Assembly: GCA_903945605.1 (NCBI GenBank)
Contig: CAJAWH010000133.1
Span: 1 to 47,933, forward strand
From: an uncultured Methylococcaceae bacterium
GTDB lineage: Bacteria; Pseudomonadota; Gammaproteobacteria; Methylococcales; Methylomonadaceae
Length of the DNA: 47,933 nt
Reading direction: 5' to 3'
The position numbers and the translations under genes were made by a program. Each line of letters opens with the position of its first letter. The stretch's first letter is position 1. The notes under the pieces are model-generated. The model saw only the letters and a program-made list of their open reading frames with translations, did no database searches and had not been told where the DNA came from. This document shows positions 7,156 to 31,744 of the stretch, piece by piece.

Positions 7156-7869
7156 TCAACAGCCCGCATCGTGACTAAAGCGCACCCGCTCCTCCGCCGA
7201 ACGGCCTAGGGCTTTGGCAAACCACGGTGGCGGGGCGGCAAACACGCTTTGGAATTCTTTTAGCTGGTCAACCGCTTCCACCACGTCCGGCACTTTAATC
7301 GGGTATATGTCGGCACGGATGACTTTTGCCGCTGCCGGGCCGCCGATGGATTGCACGAACAGCACATGACAGTCTTTTATCAGATTGGCACGGAACAGGT
7401 TGCGGTCTTCCGCTTCGTCAGCTTCAAGGGTGGAGCGGATGTCAATCAAGCGATAATCGGTTGCCGATAATTGGTAAACCAGAAAACGGATGCATGAGCC
7501 AAAATGGCCATTGACCAACGCACCGCTGTTGGAACCAATGGCGACACGTATCGATTCCGGCAGGTCACTGTCTTTGTACGGCTGTATTTCCGGCAAATCT
7601 TCGTCTTCGGCTTCATCGCCCCACAGATAGCGCACTGCCAGTTTGATATTGGCAAGGCCAATACCGATGTCTTCGCCGTCTTCTTCGCCATCCAAACTAC
7701 CCAAGCCGGTTTTTAAATTGGTGACGGTGATGGATTTAAGTTTTTCATCATCCAATGGCGAGCCGACCCGCTCGTGTAAGATGCCCAATAACTTGGGGAT
7801 GTCCACGCCCGGCAACATGCGGCTGGCGAGGGCGATACGTAAGGCAAGTTCGCGGGGTAATGCGTCCAT
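7156..7869 (-). CDS. NifY/NafY-family FeMo-cofactor-binding protein (paralogue in the nifUS operon)
   Basis: This 237-aa protein starts at ATG 7869, where AGGAG lies six bases upstream; the 16 extra codons to 7917 lack such a site. The N-terminal domain (PRELALRIALASRMLPGVD, 5-23) matches the NifY/NafY helical domain. The C-terminal half (about 107-215) is a NifX-type dinitrogenase Fe-Mo cofactor-binding domain with the conserved VNGHFGSC segment (H122); the histidine of this segment binds cofactor in A. vinelandii NafY. The family escorts FeMo-co and stabilises apo-dinitrogenase. It is last in the iscA-nifUS operon. A second member lies at 26140-26844 with the same architecture but distinct sequence. 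This copy has an acidic insertion (about 57-95) the other lacks. Confidence 0.85.
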   Translation of the reverse strand: MDALPRELALRIALASRMLPGVDIPKLLGILHERVGSPLDDEKLKSITVTNLKTGLGSLDGEEDGEDIGIGLANIKLAVRYLWGDEAEDEDLPEIQPYKDSDLPESIRVAIGSNSGALVNGHFGSCIRFLVYQLSATDYRLIDIRSTLEADEAEDRNLFRANLIKDCHVLFVQSIGGPAAAKVIRADIYPIKVPDVVEAVDQLKEFQSVFAAPPPWFAKALGRSAEERVRFSHDAGC

Positions 7870-7962
7870 ATTAACTCCTGGTTGTGCCGGTTTAAGCGGC
7901 GTGTTCATTTGCGGCAAAGCGGGGGGCTACGTTTGTCAAATTGCTTGCGTCTGCCTAACCCT

Positions 7963-8271
7963 TCATGCGCCCTGATACTGTTCTTTCCAACTGGCGTAAC
8001 CGCCTGCCAAGCTGTACACTTCTTGAAAACCAAAATCGCTAAAAAATTCTGCCAAGTGTTCGCTGGCATGTCCGTAATAGCAATAAATCAACAGGCTGCG
8101 ACTTTTGTCGCCGCGCTTGACCAGTGATTCTTTAAGTCCTTCGTGAACATGCAAGGCCTCTTCAACATGCCCTGCCTTATAGTCTTTCAGGTCACGGCAA
8201 TCCAAAATCAACGGATTATTGGTTTTTATCAAGCTTTCTGAATCGGCAACAGTGATGGTTTTAAATTTCAT
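7963..8271 (-). CDS. Rhodanese-domain sulfurtransferase in the nif operon
   Basis: A single-domain rhodanese of 102 aa, GlpE-like in size. It contains ILDCRD (22-27), the active-site loop CYYGHAS with Cys64, and the C-terminal GGYASWK. Rhodaneses carry sulfur as a persulfide on this cysteine. Start ATG 8271 has AGGA upstream. It is placed between the AAA+ ATPase and the NifY/NafY-type gene in a NifA/sigma-54 operon that also makes NifS and NifU. A role in sulfur delivery or trafficking for nitrogenase clusters is therefore a reasonable inference, but not shown. Confidence 0.85.
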   Translation of the reverse strand: MKFKTITVADSESLIKTNNPLILDCRDLKDYKAGHVEEALHVHEGLKESLVKRGDKSRSLLIYCYYGHASEHLAEFFSDFGFQEVYSLAGGYASWKEQYQGA

Positions 8272-8345: not shown

Positions 8346-10040
8346 TCAGCCCGCCAGTTCCATACCCCGGAACACCGAACAACGCTTGAACACTTCGAGG
8401 GTCGGCAAGGCATTTTTATGTTGGCAATATTTGGCGACCAACTTGGACAAGCCTTTAATGTCCCGTCCGGTGGCTTCGGGGAAAACCTCCACCAATTGAC
8501 CAATTAATCCTGCATCAATATCCAGTCCGAATTGCCTGATCATGACTTGCCAAATCTTGCCCCGCGCGCCGCTGTCCGGTGGGTAATATTTGATTAAGGC
8601 GATGCAACGGGAAACAATGGCTTCGTCTATGTCATCAACACGGTTGGTGGTTAAAAACAGCAAACCGTTGAAATATTCCAATACCCGCAAAAACACCCCG
8701 ACCACTGCGTTCATGGTGATGTTGTTGTCGCGGCGTTTAATGTATACATCGGCTTCATCAATCAGCATCACCGCCCCCCAGCGTTGGGCGCGGGTCAGCA
8801 CTTCTTTGAGGATTTTTTCCATTTCCGCCACATTCAGGCCCAATTGCCCGGAATGGACGCGGTACAAAGGCCGCCGGATGATTTCCGAATACACTTCAGC
8901 GGTCAATGTCTTGCCGACTCCGGCAGGGCCCGCGCACAACACTGTGGTGCCGCCGGACTTACCGGCAACAATATCATCCATCAGCACATCCATTTCGGCG
9001 GTCAGAATGTCTATCAAATCTATCTGTTCTGCACGCAAAATCAGTTTCTGCTTAAGTTCCGGCTGGTATTGGTAGGGCTGGATATCATTGACATGCACCC
9101 ATAAATGATGGTGCAGTTCCAGATGGAACATCAATAAATAGCCGTGTACGGGCAGTTCGGTAAATAAGCCTTTCGGGATTTCTGCTTGGGAGGCTTCCGC
9201 TTCCAGTTCAATTTTGCTGTCGTAGCGGGTGCTTTTGGCGGCCTTGCGTAAATATTTGGCAAGGATGTCGCCGGTGGTGTCCACGCTAAATGCCCGCTCG
9301 CCCAAGATACTTTCATCACACACCAGACGGGCATTGCCGCCGTCGGAGGACAGCACCACCAAGTCTTTTTTGACCCAATCGGTATTGCGGTGCGTGGCGC
9401 TCGGGTCTTCTGCAAAAAAACCGGTGCCTTTGCCCAAAAATTGGGCGCCCGATTGACCGCACCAGTCAAAATAACGGCCGGTGGCATCATCATAGGTGGC
9501 CATCAGTTCCGGTGTTTCTTTCAGATAGCCTTTGTCCAAAAAGATTTCCGTGACTGTCTTATTGACGATGTCACGGGCCCGGACCGTCAAGGTATTAATG
9601 GCAATCTTGCCTTTGGCACTGGCTTTCAGTTCCAGCGTGACGCGCCCCGTTTCTTCATCGCCCGCCGCCGTATAATCAAGGCGGGTGACCAAATAGGCTA
9701 TCGGCTTGCCAGTGGCATTGGCTTGGAATAGCCAGCCGCGCAACCCGTTATTGACCAGATAACGGGCTATGGCAGGTAGCAGCATCTCCAAATCGTCTTC
9801 TTCAAAGCGCACCGTGTCATCGTGCATTGCCTGTTGCAGCGTGGACAATTGCGCGGCTTGGCCTTGTAGCCCACCGTCTTTTTGATACAGCCATTGCAAA
9901 TAATTGACTTCGCTGGTGGACAGATAGCGAAAGGGCACATCAGCCTTATTGCCAAAGCGCAACTGGTCTTGCAATTTTGCCAGCCGTGGGAATGCCTTGA
10001 CCAAGGCTTCCACATGCTGGCGTTCTATTTGTAGCTTCAT
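8346..10040 (-). CDS. AAA+ ATPase of the nif operon, function unknown
   Basis: This 564-aa protein has a large N-terminal region (about 1-340) that I cannot assign and a C-terminal AAA+ module. The module shows Walker A GPAGVGKT (371-378), Walker B MLIDEAD (425-431), sensor-1 TTN (464-466), a candidate arginine finger in SRC (R478) and sensor-2 GRD (525-527). It has one AAA domain and no protease, DNA-binding or sigma-54-activation (GAFTGA) motif, so it looks like a remodelling ATPase of the classic AAA clade. Start ATG 10040. It lies between a 191-aa unknown and a rhodanese in the iscA-nifUS operon. Chaperoning or activating nitrogenase or an assembly protein, by analogy with the Rubisco-activating AAA+ proteins, is inference. 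Confidence 0.85.
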   Translation of the reverse strand: MKLQIERQHVEALVKAFPRLAKLQDQLRFGNKADVPFRYLSTSEVNYLQWLYQKDGGLQGQAAQLSTLQQAMHDDTVRFEEDDLEMLLPAIARYLVNNGLRGWLFQANATGKPIAYLVTRLDYTAAGDEETGRVTLELKASAKGKIAINTLTVRARDIVNKTVTEIFLDKGYLKETPELMATYDDATGRYFDWCGQSGAQFLGKGTGFFAEDPSATHRNTDWVKKDLVVLSSDGGNARLVCDESILGERAFSVDTTGDILAKYLRKAAKSTRYDSKIELEAEASQAEIPKGLFTELPVHGYLLMFHLELHHHLWVHVNDIQPYQYQPELKQKLILRAEQIDLIDILTAEMDVLMDDIVAGKSGGTTVLCAGPAGVGKTLTAEVYSEIIRRPLYRVHSGQLGLNVAEMEKILKEVLTRAQRWGAVMLIDEADVYIKRRDNNITMNAVVGVFLRVLEYFNGLLFLTTNRVDDIDEAIVSRCIALIKYYPPDSGARGKIWQVMIRQFGLDIDAGLIGQLVEVFPEATGRDIKGLSKLVAKYCQHKNALPTLEVFKRCSVFRGMELAG

Positions 10041-10114
10041 GGCGATCCCTTTGTCATGACCAAAACCGATTATCAGGGCGCAATAAAGCCGGTTGTTTAG
10101 CTAGGCGACACGGC

Positions 10115-10690
10115 CTAAATCGCGCCAACCGATGCTTCTTTAACCACTACAATAGTATTGGCTTCTGCTTGCTCATAAGAGACCAATTCGCCTTTGGCTT
10201 TGTAAGACTTGGCGGCGGCATAAGCAATACTGACCTTATCTTCAGCGGATTGGTTTTTCAGCTCATGTTTTTCAATGTACAGTTCTTCCAAAAACTCATT
10301 CCAGACCAAGCCATCTTTGAAGGGCAATAATTTGTATACCACCCCCGCCAATTCGACCTGCATAGCTTTAGCTATATTTTCAATATAAAGCAATGCAATG
10401 CAGCCTTCTGCCAAATCAGCACCGTATTTTTCGACAAACATCGGCAATAATTCCAGTTTGGGCAGCAAACCATTGAGAAAAACTATTTTGTCATTTTCAA
10501 TAATGAAGGCGGAATGCACCAACAACGCTTCGGGTGGTTTGCGGTCATTCGGGTTGGATGAGCTTTCGCATTTTTCACCTTCTTTTAGCACCAAATCACC
10601 ACGATAGGCATATACGCCTTTAGTGCTGGTTTCGCCATTGACGAGGGTGACGGTCAATAAGCCTTTGGCTTGGTAATCTGCTAATAGCAT
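10115..10690 (-). CDS. Conserved-looking 191-aa protein of the nif operon, unknown
   Basis: A soluble acidic protein without signal peptide or membrane helix. Start ATG 10690 has GGAG seven bases upstream. The N-terminal part (about 1-75) looks beta-rich (LLTVTLVNGETS, GVYAYRGDLVLKEG). The middle and C-terminal parts are predominantly helical, ending in a hydrophobic strand (NTIVVVKEA). There are two cysteines (in KCESS and EGCIAL) but no cluster-binding spacing. I do not recognise a family. It lies 70 bp after nifS and 74 bp before the AAA+ ATPase gene, so it is the natural candidate partner, adaptor or substrate of that ATPase. Confidence 0.8.
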   Translation of the reverse strand: MLLADYQAKGLLTVTLVNGETSTKGVYAYRGDLVLKEGEKCESSSNPNDRKPPEALLVHSAFIIENDKIVFLNGLLPKLELLPMFVEKYGADLAEGCIALLYIENIAKAMQVELAGVVYKLLPFKDGLVWNEFLEELYIEKHELKNQSAEDKVSIAYAAAKSYKAKGELVSYEQAEANTIVVVKEASVGAI

Positions 10691-10760: not shown

Positions 10761-11972
10761 TTAGGCATAAGTGGGCTTAAACGCCTGTTCAGGGTTGACC
10801 ACAGGACCATCGCCTTCCCAATAAGGCGACAACTTACGCAGGGTTGCCACAACCCCCGGCATCACTTTCAACACCTCGTCGACCTCGTGCATTGAGTTAT
10901 AACGCGAAAATGAGAAGCGGATGGTGCCATGTGCGGCGGTATACGGTATGTCCATTGCCCGCATGACGTGCGAAGGCTCCAGCGAACCGGAGGTGCAGGC
11001 CGACCCACTGGATGCTGCAATGCCGGCCTTGTTGAGCAGCATTAAAATGGCTTCGCCTTCGATGTATTCAAAGGCAATATCGGTGGTGTTCGGCAAACGG
11101 TTGTACAGATCGCCAGTGACGAAACAATGCGGGATTTGCTCGATGATGCCACGCTCCAAACGGTCGCGCATGGCTTTGACTTGGGTGTTCTCGTATTCGA
11201 TATGCGCCAGTGCCAATTCACAGGCCTTGCCCAAGCCGACGATGGAAGCGGTGTTTTCGGTGCCGGCACGCCGACCCCGTTCTTGATGCCCGCCGCGCAG
11301 CAATGGGCGGTAACGGGTGCCACGGCGCAGGTACAATACGCCGATACCTTTGGGGGCATGTAGCTTGTGACCGGACAAAGACAACATGTCAATTTTGGTG
11401 TCCTGCAACATCATCGGTATTTTACCGACCGCCTGCACAGCATCGGTATGGAACATCACCCCTGCATCATGTGCCAGTTGCGCCAGTTCTTGCACCGGAA
11501 AAATCGTGCCCGTTTCGTTATTGGCCCACATCACGGACACTATCGCCACTTGATCGGACAGCAGTTTTTTGTATGATTCCACATTCAAACGCCCAGCTTT
11601 GTCCACCGGCATCCGGTGGATAGTGTAGCCGTCTTTCTCCAAGGCATCGCAAAGGCTGAGGATTGCCGGATGCTCCACGGTGGTGGTGATGATTTCTTTT
11701 TTGTTGGGCTGGGCTTTAATGGCGGACAGGATTGCGGTGGAATTGGATTCGGTGCCGCAAGAGGTAAAGATAATTTCAGAATCATGTTCCGCGCCAATCA
11801 GTTCCTGCACTTGCTGGCGGGCGCGTTTAATCCCTCTCGCCACACCGTCGGCGAATTTGTGGATGGAAGACGGGTTGCCGTATTGTTCAAGAAAATACGG
11901 GATCATCACATCAACCACGGCGTGATCGACCTTGGTGGTGGCGTTATTGTCCAGATAGATGTCGCTCATCAT
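10761..11972 (-). CDS. nifS: Cysteine desulfurase NifS
   Basis: A PLP-dependent cysteine desulfurase of 403 aa with family-typical length. Visible residues include the cofactor-stacking His101 (VEHPA), Asp177 and Gln180 (HTDAVQ), the Schiff-base lysine Lys203 in [12 protein letters not shown], and the catalytic persulfide Cys326 in [10 protein letters not shown]. It removes sulfur from cysteine and passes it to NifU for Fe-S cluster assembly destined for nitrogenase. The start ATG 11972 overlaps the nifU stop (ATGA), so the two are translationally coupled. The active-site loop [15 protein letters not shown] is of the NifS/IscS class I type. Placement next to nifU supports NifS over IscS. Confidence 0.95.
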
Positions 11973-12874
11973 GCCACCTCAATATTGACCAGCTTTTTCA
12001 TTTCCGATGCCGGGACGACTTTAATAAACTCGCCCATCACCTCCATCAGCCGTTGTTGTATGCCTGCAATGGTCATAGCCGCCATTTGGCAACCGTTACA
12101 GGCCCCTGTCATATTGACGTAAGCAGTATTGCCCATCACCTCGACCAATTCAACATCACCACCATCCGCCATCAGTGCAGGCCGTAACGATTCCAGCACC
12201 TCTTCAATTTTTTTGATGCGTTGCAAGTTGGTCAATGGGCCTTTCACTTCGGCAACAGCAGGTTTTTTGGTGACTGCCGGGGCTTCGGGGTCGAATTTTT
12301 CGCCTTTTTCCGCCAGCACTTTTTCCAAAATGGCCTCAATGTCTTCATGACAAGACGCACAACCGCCGCCCGCTTTAGTGAAATTAGTGACATCTTCCAC
12401 GGTGCGTAGCTTGTTGGCCCAAACCATCTCTTCAATCATCACGGCATCAATGGCAAAGCATTTGCATATCAACGCGCCTTCTTCATGGTCGTCCGCCCAT
12501 TCTTCACCGCGATAATTGGCAATGGCGGCTTGCAAGGCTTCGCGCCCCATCACTGAGCAATGCATTTTTTCTGGCGGCAACCCTTCCAGTTGGTCGGCAA
12601 TGTCTTGGTTAGTGACTTTTAGGGCATCGTCAATAGTCATACCTTTGATGATTTCTGTCAGTACTGACGATGAGGCAATCGCTGAGCCGCAACCAAAAGT
12701 TTGAAAGCCTGCATCCAGTATCACTTCGCTGTCATCATCGACTTTTAAGGTCAGGCGTAATGCGTCACCGCAACTGATAGAACCGACTTCACCAATGGCA
12801 TTTGCATCAGGCACCGCACCAGCGTTTTTCGGGTTAAAAAAATGTTCTTTTACTTTGTCTGAATAATCCCACAT
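11969..12874 (-). CDS. nifU: Fe-S cluster scaffold NifU (three-domain)
   Basis: This 301-aa protein has the full nif-type architecture. The N-terminal IscU-like domain has cluster ligands Cys35, Cys62 and Cys106. The central [2Fe-2S] Bfd-like domain has Cys137, Cys139, Cys172 and Cys175. The C-terminal Nfu domain carries CNGC (Cys259 and Cys262). It builds transient [4Fe-4S] clusters with sulfur from NifS and delivers them to NifH and to cofactor-assembly proteins. It is preceded by iscA-nif after 116 bp and overlaps nifS by 4 bp. Transcription is expected from the sigma-54 promoter at 13389-13404. Confidence 0.97.
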
Positions 12875-12990: not shown

Positions 12991-13347
12991 TCAGGAACAG
13001 GTTTTAGTGCCCGTGCCGCTTGGGTTAGGGTTAAATGATGAGCCGCAAGCGCAGCTTTTTGCCGCATTGGGGTTGCTGAACTTAAAACCTGACCCGTCTA
13101 TGCTGTCGAGAAAATCAATCGACATGCCATCCAACATCGGCAGACTGACCGGATCGACAAATACTTTCACTGCACCGCAATCAATCACCGTATCATCAGC
13201 GGTATTTAACGCTTCCAGCTTCAGGCCGTATTGGTAGCCGGAACAACCACCATCGGTCACTTCAATCCGCAGCCCTGCTGAGGGCGTTTCTGAGCTGGCA
13301 ATAAAGCGCCCAACTGCGCTAATGGCTTTTTCTGTCAAGGTAATCAT
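12991..13347 (-). CDS. Nif-associated A-type Fe-S carrier (IscA/HesB family)
   Basis: A 118-aa HesB/IscA-family protein. Conserved ligands are Cys35 in DGGCSGYQY and the CAC pair of KSCACGSSF (about 98-100). The tail after the last cysteine is slightly longer than usual and ends in another cysteine. A-type carriers accept clusters from scaffold proteins and pass them to apo-enzymes. An equivalent gene, iscA-nif, precedes nifU in Azotobacter vinelandii, and the same order is seen here. Start ATG 13347 has a strong AGGAG. It is the first gene after the NifA/sigma-54 promoter of this operon. Confidence 0.92.
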   Translation of the reverse strand: MITLTEKAISAVGRFIASSETPSAGLRIEVTDGGCSGYQYGLKLEALNTADDTVIDCGAVKVFVDPVSLPMLDGMSIDFLDSIDGSGFKFSNPNAAKSCACGSSFNPNPSGTGTKTCS

Positions 13348-13388: not shown

Positions 13389-13404
13389 TGCAACCTGTGT
13401 GCCA
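13389..13404 (-). promoter_or_regulatory. Sigma-54 (-24/-12) promoter of the iscA-nifU-nifS operon
   Basis: On the minus strand TGGCAC (13404-13399), five bases, then TTGC (13393-13390) gives an exact TGGCAC-N5-TTGC match to the RpoN consensus, with 10 bp between GG and GC. The predicted transcription start near 13378 leaves about 30 nt before the iscA ATG. Confidence 0.9.
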
Positions 13405-13462: not shown

Positions 13463-13478
13463 TGTCGGGAAGCTCACA
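13463..13478. promoter_or_regulatory. NifA upstream activator sequence
   Basis: TGT (13463-13465), ten bases, ACA (13476-13478): an exact TGT-N10-ACA NifA-binding motif, about 59 bp upstream of the -24 box of the iscA-nifUS promoter. It lies between iscA and divergent nifZ. Confidence 0.85.
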
Positions 13479-13539
13479 AAGCAACAATCATTCAGGGTTT
13501 GTCAGGTTTCCTACAAAACCCAATAGCCAGGAGATGAAG

Positions 13540-13875: not shown

Positions 13876-15483
13876 TTAGTCATCGGCGCCGATATTAAAA
13901 AAGCTCAGCCGCTTTTGCCAGATTTTGTCCACGGGCCGCATAGGTAGCATAAATAACACAGAAACTTTTAGGCCGCCAAATTGCGACACACCCAACACCA
14001 AATCCGCGCCATGGATTGAGGCAATCCGTTCAACAATAGAAAAGCCCAGGCCAGTGCCTTGTGCTTTGTTGGCGGTTTCCACGCAACGATGAAAGCGTTT
14101 TAAAGAGTTTTCGTACTGGTCGGGCGCAATACCGGGGCCAGAATCTTCCACGCTCAGTTGCAAATGGTTGGCTTTGCTGCCGATGCTAATCAGGATATTG
14201 CCTCTTGCAGGGGTGTATTTAATGGCATTATCAACAATATTCCTGATTAAAATGGCAATCAGCGGCGCGTTGATGACTACCGGCTTTACCCCCTCCTCTT
14301 CGGCAAATTCCATATTGATGCGTTTTTTGTGTGCTTCGGGCTCCAGTTCGGCAATCACTTTGACCACCTCAGGCCCCAAGGCAGTACTTTCTTTGGCCAA
14401 GTATTCGGTGCTGGATTCAATCCTTGAAAAAATCAGCAGTTGTTGCACCAGATAAGTCATGCGGTTGACGGCCTGCTCAATACGCTTTAACGCCTGTTTG
14501 CGGGTATCGTTGTCATGGGTGCGCAGAGCCACTTGCGCTTGGGTCAGCAAGCCCGCCAGCGGTGTCCGCAATTCATGGGCAGCATCGGCGGTAAAACGGC
14601 GTTCATGTTCAAAAGCTTCTTCAAGCTGTATGAACAGATTGTTGATTTCATTCACCATCGGCACGATTTCATTGGGCAATTTACGCAGTGAAAGCGGCTT
14701 CAGATAACTGGCTTCGCGTCTGGCTAAAGATTTTTCCAGCCGGTTCAACGGTTTTAAAGAAACCCCAACAATCACCCAAATGACAATACCTAAAATAGGC
14801 AAACCCACCAAAAATTGGAACACCAACTGCAAAGAAATTTCATCAGTCAGTTCAGCGCGTATTTCTTGCTTTTGACCGACATGGACAATAATGTCACCCG
14901 TGGAGTTGGCAATACTGAACACGTGCCAAAAATGGCCGTCAATGGTGGTTTTGCTGAAGCCGTTGTCGGCTTCCGAAAAAGCAAACTTAGGCGCACTCTC
15001 CGATCGCAGCAACAAGCCATCTTTTTTCGACCATAATTGGAAGGCAATCTTACGTTCGTATTTATGCCCTAAAGAATTGGCCCTCAGCAAATCATCAAAC
15101 ACTTGCCATAGGCGATTATTGGCGTTGACCTGATCGAAGCCCAGCACGGAGAAATTGGGTGATTTTTTGGCCGGCTGCAATAAAATGTCGCCGTTGGGCC
15201 AAAGCTGGGGTTCGCTGCTGATTTTAAATTTGTGCCTTAAGCCATAAATATGCAGGTTTTTGTCGGCTTGCTCCAAATTCCAGTGCGTGGTGAAAGCCCC
15301 TTCCCGTAGCAGGCTTTCCACAAACGACAACAGAACCTTGGCGGATTGCGCCAGTTCCGCATCAAATAAGTTGGCGACCTCGTCGCGTATGCCTTTGTAA
15401 CTGACGTAAGCGGAAATGCCCCAGATCACCATTGAGGCGGAAAGCAGGCTAACCAGTAACAGTTGTCTAAGCGAATAGTTCAT
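13876..15483 (-). CDS. Sensor histidine kinase, QseC-like
   Basis: A 535-aa inner-membrane kinase. Two transmembrane helices (about 7-29 and 218-243) bracket a periplasmic sensor domain of some 190 residues. A HAMP-like linker is followed by the HisKA phosphoacceptor motif AAHELRTPL (His303), then HATPase motifs: N-box IVDNAIKYT, G1 VEDSGPGIA and G2 GTGLGF. Phosphotransfer to the regulator upstream in the same operon is expected. Start ATG 15483 overlaps the regulator stop by 4 bp. The signal is unknown. The nearest divergent gene is nifZ, and no nif-type promoter element precedes this pair, so no link to nitrogen fixation is claimed. Confidence 0.92.
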   Translation of the reverse strand: MNYSLRQLLLVSLLSASMVIWGISAYVSYKGIRDEVANLFDAELAQSAKVLLSFVESLLREGAFTTHWNLEQADKNLHIYGLRHKFKISSEPQLWPNGDILLQPAKKSPNFSVLGFDQVNANNRLWQVFDDLLRANSLGHKYERKIAFQLWSKKDGLLLRSESAPKFAFSEADNGFSKTTIDGHFWHVFSIANSTGDIIVHVGQKQEIRAELTDEISLQLVFQFLVGLPILGIVIWVIVGVSLKPLNRLEKSLARREASYLKPLSLRKLPNEIVPMVNEINNLFIQLEEAFEHERRFTADAAHELRTPLAGLLTQAQVALRTHDNDTRKQALKRIEQAVNRMTYLVQQLLIFSRIESSTEYLAKESTALGPEVVKVIAELEPEAHKKRINMEFAEEEGVKPVVINAPLIAILIRNIVDNAIKYTPARGNILISIGSKANHLQLSVEDSGPGIAPDQYENSLKRFHRCVETANKAQGTGLGFSIVERIASIHGADLVLGVSQFGGLKVSVLFMLPMRPVDKIWQKRLSFFNIGADD

Positions 15484-16148
15484 GCTTCATCTTCATTGTC
15501 GACCACATAGCCCACTCCGCGTACGGTTCTGATCAATCCGGCATCAAGCTTTTTGCGGAGATGATGGATGTGCACCTCAACCGTGTTGCTTTCAATATCA
15601 GAATTCCATGAGTACAAAGCCTCTTCCAGACGCGCCCGCGAAACCACCTTGCCAATATTGCTCATCAAGAAACTGAGGATTTCAAACTCTTTTTGGGACA
15701 AGTCAACTTTTTCGCCCTGCCAGGTGACTTGATGTGCGGCAGGGTCCAGGACAATGCCACGGTGTTCGATAGTGGGTGCGCTGCGGCCTTCATTACGCCG
15801 TGCCAAGGCCCGTAGCCTGGCACACACCTCGTCCAACTCAAACGGCTTAATGACAAAATCATCCGCACCGCTATCCAGTCCCATGACCCGGTCGGGAATG
15901 GTGTCACGCGCAGTCAGCACCATCACCGGGGTTTCATTTTTGCGGCTTCTTAAGGCTTTTAACAGGCTGATGCCATTCATGTCCGGCAGGTTCCAGTCCA
16001 GCACGATCAAATCATAACTGTTGACCTTTAACGCCTCGTCAGCCATGCGGCCGTTGGTCAGCCAATCCACCGCATAGCCTTCCATGGTCAGCCCCGCCAC
16101 CAAGCCGTCACCAAGAATTTCATCATCCTCCACCAATAACAGGCGCAT
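15480..16148 (-). CDS. OmpR-family response regulator, QseB-like
   Basis: A 222-aa two-domain regulator. The receiver domain has the acidic pocket EDD (7-9), phosphoacceptor Asp51 in VLDWNLPD, and Lys101 in VIKPFE. The C-terminal winged-helix DNA-binding domain (about 125-220) contains the typical LSQKEFEILSFLM and VEVHIHHLRKKL segments. It is paired with the downstream histidine kinase by a 4-bp overlap. QseB/PmrA-type regulators act as DNA-binding transcription factors; the target genes here are unknown. The gene upstream, a Fae homologue on the same strand 57 bp away, could be co-transcribed, so a link to C1 stress is conceivable. Confidence 0.92.
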   Translation of the reverse strand: MRLLLVEDDEILGDGLVAGLTMEGYAVDWLTNGRMADEALKVNSYDLIVLDWNLPDMNGISLLKALRSRKNETPVMVLTARDTIPDRVMGLDSGADDFVIKPFELDEVCARLRALARRNEGRSAPTIEHRGIVLDPAAHQVTWQGEKVDLSQKEFEILSFLMSNIGKVVSRARLEEALYSWNSDIESNTVEVHIHHLRKKLDAGLIRTVRGVGYVVDNEDEA

Positions 16149-16205
16149 CAGAACGCCCTGCCATTACTGCAAAAAAGCATCATTAACTGCGGCGGGCCAG
16201 CCATA

Positions 16206-16757
16206 TCACCACTGCGATTCGCCAGTTTCAGGATCATACATTTCGTGGGCTATTGTGTGGCGGTTGGCAATCAGCTCCTCAATGCTTGGGGAATTGCCCA
16301 TGGCACGGACAAGGGCCAATTTCATTGCTTCATAGTTGGTGCGGTACAAGTCTTTACGGTCAACATCTGGGTTAGCCGCGCAATCCGGTGCAATCCACAC
16401 CATGACAATCAGACATAAATCATTGGCCAAATCGGCGGGTATCACGCCCTCAATCACGCTATCCAGCACCGCATCGGCAATGGCCGATTGCACTGGGCCG
16501 CCCAGCAAATTGACATAAGCCGTCGATTTAATGGTCACTTTCGGTACCATCAGGGTTGCCGGACGCACTTGTTGGTTGCAGGCACGCATGGCAAACATAC
16601 GGGTGTGGCCTTCAGTCTGCCCCATCAGGTTGGCAAAGGCATGACCTGCCGGCCCATTGATGCTGCCAATAAGAATTTCCAACATGGCATCAGTGCCTTG
16701 GTCGGCACTGGAAAATACGGTGGCTTCACCGGTTCTGAAGCCTATGAGATCGGACAT
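16206..16757 (-). CDS. Formaldehyde-activating enzyme homologue lacking the catalytic histidine
   Basis: A 183-aa Fae-family protein. It matches Fae across its length: GEATVF (10-15), LEILIG (26-31), the EGHT segment (49-52), TLMVPKVTIK (68-77) and SVIEGVIPAD (100-109). Fae condenses formaldehyde with tetrahydromethanopterin. In genuine Fae the segment reads AHxDLIIG, with the histidine proposed as the catalytic acid/base; here it reads AMLEILIG, with Met25 in that place and Glu27 replacing Asp. This is therefore probably a divergent paralogue (Fae2/Fae3 type) with another role, such as formaldehyde or pterin sensing or binding. Start ATG 16757 has GGAGTG upstream. It precedes the two-component system genes on the same strand. 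Confidence 0.85.
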   Translation of the reverse strand: MSDLIGFRTGEATVFSSADQGTDAMLEILIGSINGPAGHAFANLMGQTEGHTRMFAMRACNQQVRPATLMVPKVTIKSTAYVNLLGGPVQSAIADAVLDSVIEGVIPADLANDLCLIVMVWIAPDCAANPDVDRKDLYRTNYEAMKLALVRAMGNSPSIEELIANRHTIAHEMYDPETGESQW

Positions 16758-23965: not shown

Positions 23966-24949
23966 TCAGATGCTATACGGTGATGCAATCCAATCGTTCA
24001 GTATGGCTGCATCCCGTTCCGGCAAATACGAAAATTCCCCGCTCAAATCTTTGTAAACGGCAACGCCGCAATGGGCTGTTACGCCTATGCCTTTGAGCAG
24101 GTAAAAATACCAAGCCATCGGATAACCGGCTTGGCGGTCAAAACGGGTCAGCAGGTTGTGCAGTGGCAGCCCTTTTTTGCCCTGCAGGTCGTCTAATTGT
24201 GCAATGTTCTTGGTTTGGGTGTTGATCAGTTCCACGTTGATTTGCTGTTCGCCAAAACGACCGGTATGGCGGAACGGGCGGACAATCCAATCTTCCGAAA
24301 GGGCTTTTTTTTGTCCTGCACTACTACGGTTCCAATCATCCATAAAGCGTTGTACCGGATGCCGGTCGGGATGATGCCCATTGAGTTCCGCCATAAACAC
24401 TGCCACGTCGGTTTTGCGCCGATAGGCATAACGTGCCGTGCCGATATTAAAGGGATCGATACATTCTGGGTCGAGCGGATCGATGAACTCTTCCAAATCT
24501 TCCGGTGGTTGCTTGGGATTGACCAGCAAGCGGTCGGACACTTCACGGATTTTGTCGATGTCCAGTTGGATGAAATCTTCCGCCCCGGCTCCGGTTTGAA
24601 TAACAAAATGCAAGGTGTTGCCGGTTTGCCGCGTGGCGATCAGTTGCTGTGCTTGGGTGTGGTCAATCAGTGCTTGTAAGTCTTTGCCGCAACCAATGTA
24701 GGTGCGTTCGGCCCATTCCACCAAATCATTGGCGATGCGGTTGCCGTGCATATCCACAATACCACCCAACCGATACCATTCGCTGCCGGTGCGTGCCAAA
24801 CGCACCGGATAGTCAGGGATTAGGGCTTGAATTTTGGCCAGCAACGCTTCATTGCCAGCTGCCGGTACGGTGGTTTTGCACAGTTTGGCCAATTGCTGGC
24901 CGTCCAAGGCCGTGGTACTGGCGCAGGGTTGTATAGATGAGCTTGTCAT
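23966..24949 (-). CDS. Nif-cluster protein of 327 aa, unknown
   Basis: A soluble 327-aa protein with no signal or membrane helix. The start ATG 24949 overlaps the LRV gene stop (TAATG), so it is translationally coupled to it. Visible features: RTGSEWYRLGGIVDMHG (53-69), an acidic central stretch (PPEDLEEFIDPLDPECIDP, about 148-166), and an aromatic C-terminus (YPMAWYFYLLKGIGV). There are four cysteines with no cluster-binding spacing. I do not recognise a family. Position in a NifA-driven transcript next to an Fe-S repeat protein suggests a nitrogenase-related role only by context. Confidence 0.8.
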   Translation of the reverse strand: MTSSSIQPCASTTALDGQQLAKLCKTTVPAAGNEALLAKIQALIPDYPVRLARTGSEWYRLGGIVDMHGNRIANDLVEWAERTYIGCGKDLQALIDHTQAQQLIATRQTGNTLHFVIQTGAGAEDFIQLDIDKIREVSDRLLVNPKQPPEDLEEFIDPLDPECIDPFNIGTARYAYRRKTDVAVFMAELNGHHPDRHPVQRFMDDWNRSSAGQKKALSEDWIVRPFRHTGRFGEQQINVELINTQTKNIAQLDDLQGKKGLPLHNLLTRFDRQAGYPMAWYFYLLKGIGVTAHCGVAVYKDLSGEFSYLPERDAAILNDWIASPYSI

Positions 24950-25722
24950 TAGCGGATGTCCGGTGTCTGTAGGGGGCTGGCGAGACGTGCCACAACCGCG
25001 GCTTGCACGTCCGGTTCTGGATCATCAGGAAAGTCGCGTAGCGCGTCGGCAGGCACACGTTGCACAGCAGTGTAACGCACCACCCAATCAGGGTCGTGCA
25101 ATAAGGCAACGGCTTCCTCGGGGTCAATACGCTCGGCAATAATCCGGCGCACTTCGGGCGCTTCGTCATGTGCCATTAAAGCTAAGCTAACATCCGGCAA
25201 ACGTTCGGCGACGATTTTACGCACCGCCATGTCGGGGTCGCGGATTAAACGGAACAGACGGCCTTGCGGTAATCGTCGGGCGACGGTGAGGCGCACGATA
25301 TAGTCGGCATCATCTGCCAGTTGTTCCAGTTGCTCGGCTGGGATGCGGTCTGCCACGGTCATGCGCACTTCACGGTCAGTGTCGTTGATGAGCGTGCCCA
25401 GTTGCGTGGCAGGCAAGCGGTAGGCCACAGCGCGGCGCACCACTTCGTCTTCATCGTTGACCAACTCCAATAGGGCTTTTTGCGGCGCGTAACGCACCGC
25501 AATAGCCCGCCGCTCCCAGAACGGGTCATGCAGATAATGTTCTGCGTAGGCGGGGTTAATGCGCAAGAAACGGTCTATTTGCCGCCCGCTGGTGGCGGTG
25601 ATGCAGGTGTCGCCGGGCATACAGCGCCCCATCAGCAAGGTTTTGCCGCGAAAGGGACACTGGCTACAATCGGCAATGGGCAGGGTGACAGTGTTGTCTT
25701 GAAAATTGTCTTGAACGGACAT
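24949..25722 (-). CDS. Leucine-rich-repeat-variant (LRV) protein with N-terminal [4Fe-4S] motif
   Basis: A 257-aa protein. The N-terminal segment has four cysteines (Cys19, Cys22, Cys34, Cys40) spaced C-x2-C-x11-C-x5-C. About eight repeats of some 24 residues follow from residue 65, of the form (D/E)xxxxVRRxVAxRLPxxxLxxLxxD. This matches the Azotobacter vinelandii LRV protein, whose crystal structure shows a repeat superhelix and which carries a [4Fe-4S] cluster at the N-terminus; its function is unknown. The curved repeat surface is a likely protein- or nucleic-acid-binding face. It lies between the DUF6129-like gene and the 327-aa gene in the nifH operon. Confidence 0.9.
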   Translation of the reverse strand: MSVQDNFQDNTVTLPIADCSQCPFRGKTLLMGRCMPGDTCITATSGRQIDRFLRINPAYAEHYLHDPFWERRAIAVRYAPQKALLELVNDEDEVVRRAVAYRLPATQLGTLINDTDREVRMTVADRIPAEQLEQLADDADYIVRLTVARRLPQGRLFRLIRDPDMAVRKIVAERLPDVSLALMAHDEAPEVRRIIAERIDPEEAVALLHDPDWVVRYTAVQRVPADALRDFPDDPEPDVQAAVVARLASPLQTPDIR

Positions 25723-30689: not shown

Positions 30690-31679
<990 letters not shown>

Positions 31680-31728: not shown

Positions 31729-31744
31729 TGTGGGCTTACTGACA
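31729..31744. promoter_or_regulatory. NifA upstream activator sequence for nifH
   Basis: TGT (31729-31731), ten bases, ACA (31742-31744): an exact NifA-binding motif, about 97 bp upstream of the -24 box, the usual distance for nifH promoters. Confidence 0.88.

Follow-up and report, generated by a model that had tools for sequence, protein, structure and literature searches.

The window, by which we mean the whole stretch of DNA that was analysed (47,933 nucleotides), is contig C133. The genome to which it belongs measures 2.88 Mb and carries nifHDK, nifU, nifS and a gene for a formaldehyde-activating enzyme. A gene run on the minus strand of the window, in the order iscA-nifU-nifS-191aa-AAA-rhodanese-NafY/NifY type, is preceded by a NifA/sigma-54 promoter before the IscA-type gene. 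The genes and sites of this run are the following.

7156-7917, minus strand: protein with DIMCO_N and Nitro_FeMo-Co domains (by Pfam), in the same gene run as the AAA gene
7963-8271, minus strand: single-domain, GlpE-like rhodanese (profile match), in the same gene run as the AAA gene
8346-10040, minus strand: AAA+ ATPase of 564 aa, with an N-terminal domain at about 1-340 and an AAA core at about 360-560; member of a diazotroph-specific clade
10115-10690, minus strand: ORF of the nif-linked 191-aa protein, with no family match
10761-11972, minus strand: NifS cysteine desulfurase (TIGR03402, 632 bits)
11969-12874, minus strand: NifU scaffold (TIGR02000, 468 bits)
12991-13347, minus strand: IscA-type protein (profile match), first gene of the run
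13389-13404, minus strand: sigma-54 -24/-12 promoter TGGCACACAGGTTGCA, with one departure from TGGCACG-N4-TTGCW
13463-13478, no strand assigned: NifA upstream activator sequence, TGT-N10-ACA
13500-13515, no strand assigned: second NifA upstream activator sequence, TGT-N10-ACA

The domain layout of the protein encoded at 7156-7917 is of the NafY/NifY type. By ORF coordinates, gaps of 70-74 bp are found around the 191-aa and AAA genes and 45 bp precede the last gene, while nifS and nifU overlap and the spacing between nifU and iscA is 116 bp. The ORF list and the Pfam and NCBIfam searches confirm the initial annotation in its placement of the 564-aa and 191-aa ORFs between nifS and the rhodanese/NifY-type pair. 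The NifA/RpoN promoter that it had ascribed to the transcript stands as a sigma-54 site, accompanied by two NifA sites, so that the operon carries the regulon signature of TGT-N10-ACA plus -24/-12; the sigma-54 site departs at one position from the consensus, however, and it heads the IscA-type gene rather than nifS. Promoter-like and terminator-like sites in the stretch showed no excess over shuffled sequence.

Other features of the window may be recorded here. A second sigma-54 site (31617-31632, minus strand) with a NifA upstream activator sequence (31729-31744) lies upstream of nifH. Between the two nif blocks, positions 13876-16757 are occupied by a QseBC/PmrAB-like two-component pair and the gene for the formaldehyde-activating enzyme. 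Inside the nifHDK cluster, an LRV/HEAT-repeat protein with an LRV_FeS domain (24949-25722, minus strand) adjoins a 327-aa protein (23966-24949, minus strand) that has no Pfam or NCBIfam match and recurs in six clustered loci, the window counted.

The AAA protein matches the Pfam AAA family (PF00004) over residues 367-479 with 58.7 bits against a cut-off of 21.2, and it is accordingly a classical AAA ATPase. The Walker A (GPAGVGKT, residues 371-378) and Walker B (MLIDEAD, residues 425-431) motifs are intact, as had been annotated, and K377, T378, D428, E429, N466 and R478 are invariant in 61 aligned members of the AAA clade. N466 is presumably the sensor asparagine and R478 a candidate arginine finger; the arginine motif 'SRC' is reminiscent of clamp loaders. 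Inspection by eye did not reveal the aromatic residue that is usual in the pore loop, and a strict threading model is weakened accordingly. The N-terminal segment of approximately 340 residues was rightly described as unassigned, in that no Pfam family exceeds its cut-off within residues 1-340, and it is conserved across the members. No protease domain was found in the protein by Pfam search.

Among proteins of solved structure, those related to the AAA core by sequence are VCP-like proteins, Rix7, Cdc48 and proteasome Rpt. The fold search is in agreement; its matches in the PDB cover only the AAA part of the model, with TM-scores that are mostly low. In the structure model the N-terminal domain is of fair confidence and the AAA core is poorly modelled. 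The closest named relatives of the protein come from an uncultured Methylococcaceae bin (96% identity) and from Methylovulum miyakonense HT12 (91%), so that the window probably derives from a methanotroph of the Gammaproteobacteria. Several named families were considered for it and set aside. For CbbQ/NorQ (MoxR), the AAA_5 profile scored 15.2 bits where the cut-off is 22, and at E<1 no family for the CbbQ C-terminus appeared. The scores for the Rubisco activase CbbX (TIGR02880, 11.4 bits against 459.25) and for IteA, an ATPase of anti-phage defence (31 against 510 bits), fell far below their thresholds. Neither a ClpX profile nor its zinc-binding domain was returned at E<1 from Pfam or NCBIfam, which sets aside ClpX, ClpX2 included.

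The distribution of the AAA gene follows that of nifD closely. Among 101 relatives it is found in 40 genomes and nifD in 48, with both present in 38 (Fisher p about 4e-16). Carriers in this set are defined by a full or large match to the AAA family of at least 285 bits; they include a genome with a 150-aa fragment containing a stop (G001), one with the gene in two pieces (G015) and one with a single internal stop (G031), whereas a 64-aa remnant with a stop (G042) was not counted. The two carriers lacking nifD (G013 and G023) are represented by genomes that are 76-77% complete. Within the window's genus, 14 of the 20 genomes have both genes, three have neither, two have nifD only and one has the AAA gene only. 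Sorted by identity, 20 of the 40 carriers have a window-like copy (at least 77%); in the other 20 the copy is less similar (67-71%), and no genome showed both kinds.

Wider draws gave the same picture. All nine full-length carriers in a set of 370 class-level genomes fall within the 37 that have nifD, a tenth profile match being limited to the AAA half in a genome without nifD. In the family of G350 (42 genomes) all four carriers are among 14 nifD genomes, and in the family of the Zoogloea locus (247 genomes) all 30 full-length carriers are among 110; three further genomes of the latter draw have matches to the AAA half only, none of them with nifD at the threshold used. Over these four draws, which overlap by a few genomes, 81 of 83 carriers have nifD, and the gene is on this measure specific to diazotrophs. 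A set of 338 genomes from the phylum yielded, outside the class, three intact full-length copies (G784, G787 and G844) and one broken (G836), and three further matches in the set span the AAA half only. Copies broken by internal stops were seen in G001, G031, G776 and G836. Finally, 33 named genomes with the AAA gene were picked by us from 80 loci, mostly outside the window's clade, and include Ferrovum, Sulfuriferula, Dechloromonas, Azomonas, Thiothrix and Thiobacillus; nifD scores above the cut-off in 29 of them, lies at a contig edge in one, is replaced by a match of NifE strength only in one and is missing from two, both of which are drafts. The initial annotation had proposed a profile search for co-occurrence with nif genes as a check on its assignment; this search, now carried out, did not return frequent occurrence of the AAA gene without them.

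The converse relationship is looser. Genomes that have nifD without the AAA gene number 10 of 48 among the relatives, 28 of 37 in the class, 10 of 14 in the family of G350 and 80 of 110 in the Zoogloea family. The AAA gene is thus not a core nif gene, and its absence from many nifD genomes indicates that it is dispensable for carrying nif.

Regulation of the AAA gene was examined directly upstream of the gene and at the heads of its operons. Directly upstream, 35 of 110 cases show a NifA site and a -24/-12 element that are correctly ordered and spaced (24 of these with at most two departures). Shuffled sequences gave this result 9 times in 2200, and the other ORFs of these loci 6 times in 559; 110 of 118 entries were kept after identical proteins and loci with fewer than 300 upstream bases had been dropped. 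For nifH the same test was positive in 10 of 15 cases, the window's own nifH being among the five missed. At operon heads the promoter pair occurs in 35 of 89 AAA loci (13 of 31 in the window's clade and 22 of 58 elsewhere) versus 9 of 712 control genes, with AAA upstream regions read to 600 bases and all others to 500; the remaining 54 of the 89 heads have no pair by the rule used. A further 11 of 100 loci had been left out of the operon-head test where the ORF caller missed the AAA frame. Outside nif clusters, the AAA gene has NifA/sigma-54 promoters of its own. In several Methylococcaceae loci (L121-L124 and L130-L132), such a promoter stands before the 191-aa gene, with the AAA gene behind it.

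A tree of 121 rows separates 116 clade members from five paralogues along a long branch with a support of 99, by a quick method in which support is SH-aLRT only and the program warns of long branches. The paralogues (G242, G566, G970 and others) have the same arrangement of N-domain and AAA core at 36-39% identity. The two groups share 95 conserved positions; another 34, conserved to at least 98% within the nif clade, occur in none of the five paralogues. Both paralogue genomes for which nifD status was determined (G242 and G566) are without nifD. Copies from Methylococcales are scattered in the tree, next to those of beta- and other gammaproteobacteria, and this placement suggests that the AAA gene may have been transferred among diazotrophs.

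The surroundings of the gene vary with lineage. Within 4 kb of it, the 31 loci of the window's clade have a nif gene in 26 cases, a NafY/NifY-type gene in 19, a rhodanese in 16 and an ankyrin protein in 15; the 49 other loci have a recognised nif gene in four, a glutathione S-transferase (GST) in 14, a CCG iron-sulfur protein in nine and DUF6156 in eight. Neighbour names in these counts are from Pfam, and the neighbouring genes are annotated in part. In several genomes of the Zoogloea family the AAA gene adjoins nifHDK or nifEN. A GST gene lies beside or near it across distant lineages (L137, L139, L143, L149, L162, L175, L180, L183, L252 and L255). Separately, a 124-aa protein without a Pfam match (L067:11715-12089, minus strand, and relatives) recurs in the nif regions of related methanotrophs, its cluster comprising 28 ORFs with overlapping loci counted.

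The 191-aa protein had been paired with the AAA protein as a functional unit, a claim that is not supported. The protein matches no Pfam or NCBIfam family at E<1, and its structure model, although confident (mean pLDDT 92), finds no convincing counterpart in the PDB or BFVD (best E 0.024 and 0.023, respectively). Counts for the gene cover the 101 relatives and the loci already collected. It is present in 47 of the 101 relatives, 45 of these with nifD, and so in 45 of 48 nifD genomes and in 38 of 40 AAA genomes; it is also found in eight of the ten nifD genomes that have no AAA gene. It lies within 4 kb of the AAA gene in 27 of 31 loci of the window's clade and in 3 of 49 others. Both its occurrence without the AAA gene and the small number of loci outside the window's clade at which the two lie close together lead us to reject an obligate two-gene module. 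In several genomes, distant homologues (about 25-35% identity) are located no more than a few kb from nifHDK. The 191-aa gene represents a distinct nif-linked family; in the window's lineage it shares a transcript with the AAA gene, and the two proteins may or may not work together. In some methanotrophs (L129, L131, L071 and L094) a SIR2-like gene is divergent from nifH and is followed by the 191-aa gene.

A probable counterpart of the AAA gene is found in Azoarcus sp. BH72. Sections of one report on this strain (PMC3916325) describe azo3791 as a 'conserved hypothetical ATPase' outside the nif cluster and count it among eight BH72 genes for which an RpoN site and a NifA site are both predicted. 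These sections give it no gene name and do not study it further. It appears there in lists of genes that are modulated during N2 fixation and under NifA control, which do not give the direction, and hoxB is azo3807, 16 numbers away (PMC3916325). In G559, a single-contig genome from the Zoogloea-family draw that we infer to be a close Azoarcus relative, the AAA gene is flanked by [NiFe] hydrogenase structural genes on one side and hyp genes on the other, and a sigma-54 element (-68) and a NifA site (-157) stand upstream of it. A second ORF that by eye resembles a hydrogenase small subunit comes 13th to 15th from the AAA gene and is followed by a second large subunit; its position is hoxB-like, compared with 16 by the BH72 numbering. 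This gene order suggests that azo3791 is the orthologue of the AAA gene. By position and description, azo3791 is probably the counterpart of the window's AAA gene, differing from it in that it stands among hydrogenase genes and not in a nif operon. The gene is not named in the main text of the BH72 Tn-Seq paper, as far as the sections available to us extend, and among open-licence papers it was found in PMC3916325 only.

The AAA gene co-occurs with nifD in five genome sets, has its own NifA/sigma-54 promoters outside nif clusters and has a probable counterpart under NifA control; together these lend strong support to the earlier view of it as a dedicated nitrogen-fixation gene. The role that the initial annotation proposed for it, in remodelling a nitrogenase component, is plausible. 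No description of the family was found in the open-access literature, and the gene is not named in the portions available to us of PMC8467165, PMC9769520, PMC2820453, PMC10623323 and PMC7154130. The diazotroph-specific AAA subfamily is real and, as far as literature searches reach, undescribed.

Sequence analysis shows the family to be nearly restricted to nif genomes, to have its own NifA-type promoters in many genomes and intact ATPase motifs, to be set apart from its paralogues and to be absent from some diazotrophs. A complete classical core joined to a conserved N-terminal domain of no known family would fit an ATP-driven remodeller with a nif-specific client. We therefore favour, at a probability of about 0.5, an accessory member of the NifA/sigma-54 regulon that remodels such a client, likely a complex for the assembly or maintenance of nitrogenase. 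The AAA protein would be made together with nitrogenase and would form a ring, its N-terminal domain recognising the client and ATP being spent to pull this apart or reshape it. The likeliest clients would be carriers of the NafY/NifY/NifX type on apo-NifDK or NifEN, or MoFe protein whose cofactor has failed or been damaged. In the window's clade, linkage to genes for rhodanese and NafY/NifY-type proteins is indicative of cofactor handling, and the accessory distribution is indicative of a part in yield or maintenance, not in an essential step; the protein would increase the amount of active nitrogenase or prolong its activity without being required for it. In a more specific form, offered with low probability, the protein would be a nitrogenase activase, namely a NifA-induced AAA ring that uses ATP to free MoFe protein or NifEN of failed cofactor or of NafY/NifY-type carriers; it would be present in some Pseudomonadota diazotrophs and would have spread among them independently of the nif cluster.

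Foremost among the alternatives, though on balance improbable, is Nif-specific quality control, in which the AAA protein would extract or unfold Nif proteins (NifDK, NifB and NifEN) that are oxygen-damaged, surplus or aggregated and pass them on to general proteases or to refolding, much as is proposed for ClpX2 of Azotobacter vinelandii. The accessory nature of the gene is consistent with this, as is the character of the best solved relatives of its core (VCP-like, Rix7, Cdc48 and Rpt), which are remodelling ATPases and unfoldases. Precedent exists in the control of NifB and NifEN levels by ClpX in Azotobacter vinelandii and in the NifA-controlled clpX and clpP of BH72, as described in sections of PMC3916325; the same BH72 genes, however, mean that a NifA-controlled clpXP is already in place in that strain (PMC3916325), and the AAA protein has no protease domain.

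Appreciably less probable, in our estimate, is that the AAA protein helps an accessory enzyme of the nif regulon, such as an uptake [NiFe] hydrogenase, the GST or the CCG iron-sulfur protein, instead of nitrogenase. Hydrogenase structural genes are indeed close to the AAA gene in L072, L121, L229 and L236, and the neighbours counted above outside the window's clade (GST, CCG iron-sulfur protein and DUF6156, with GST also at L252 and L255) point the same way. However, none of these candidates is close to the AAA gene at more than a minority of loci (for hydrogenase structural genes, 4 of 144 searched, not all of which carry the AAA gene), and in the window and several Zoogloea-family genomes the AAA gene is among nif assembly or structural genes. 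That a general-use ATPase is passively riding in nif operons is largely refuted, for although paralogues of the same layout outside the clade (L237 and L238) occur in the nifD-less genomes G566 and G242, the nifD co-occurrence and the operon-head promoter counts reject a simple passenger, clade members being nearly confined to nif genomes at many loci and having NifA/sigma-54 promoters at many of them.

Assembly and upkeep of nitrogenase are a main hurdle in moving nitrogen fixation to new hosts. Near-exclusive to diazotrophs, provided with NifA-type promoters at unrelated places and missing from some diazotrophs, the AAA family looks like an unrecognised factor for nitrogenase performance or protection.

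The idea of a dedicated ATPase serving one large enzyme is shared with CbbQ/NorQ and CbbX, although by profile the AAA protein of the window belongs to a different family. ClpX2, which works with ClpP, likewise represents a different AAA+ family. In A. vinelandii it is, according to sections of PMC3916325, an AAA+ ATPase tied to nitrogen fixation, as is proposed here for the AAA protein. From the classical AAA ATPases the protein is distinguished by an N-terminal domain without a known family and by having no protease domain, whereas the AAA core, by sequence and by fold, is a feature that it shares with the VCP/Cdc48-like proteins, proteasome Rpt/PAN and FtsH.
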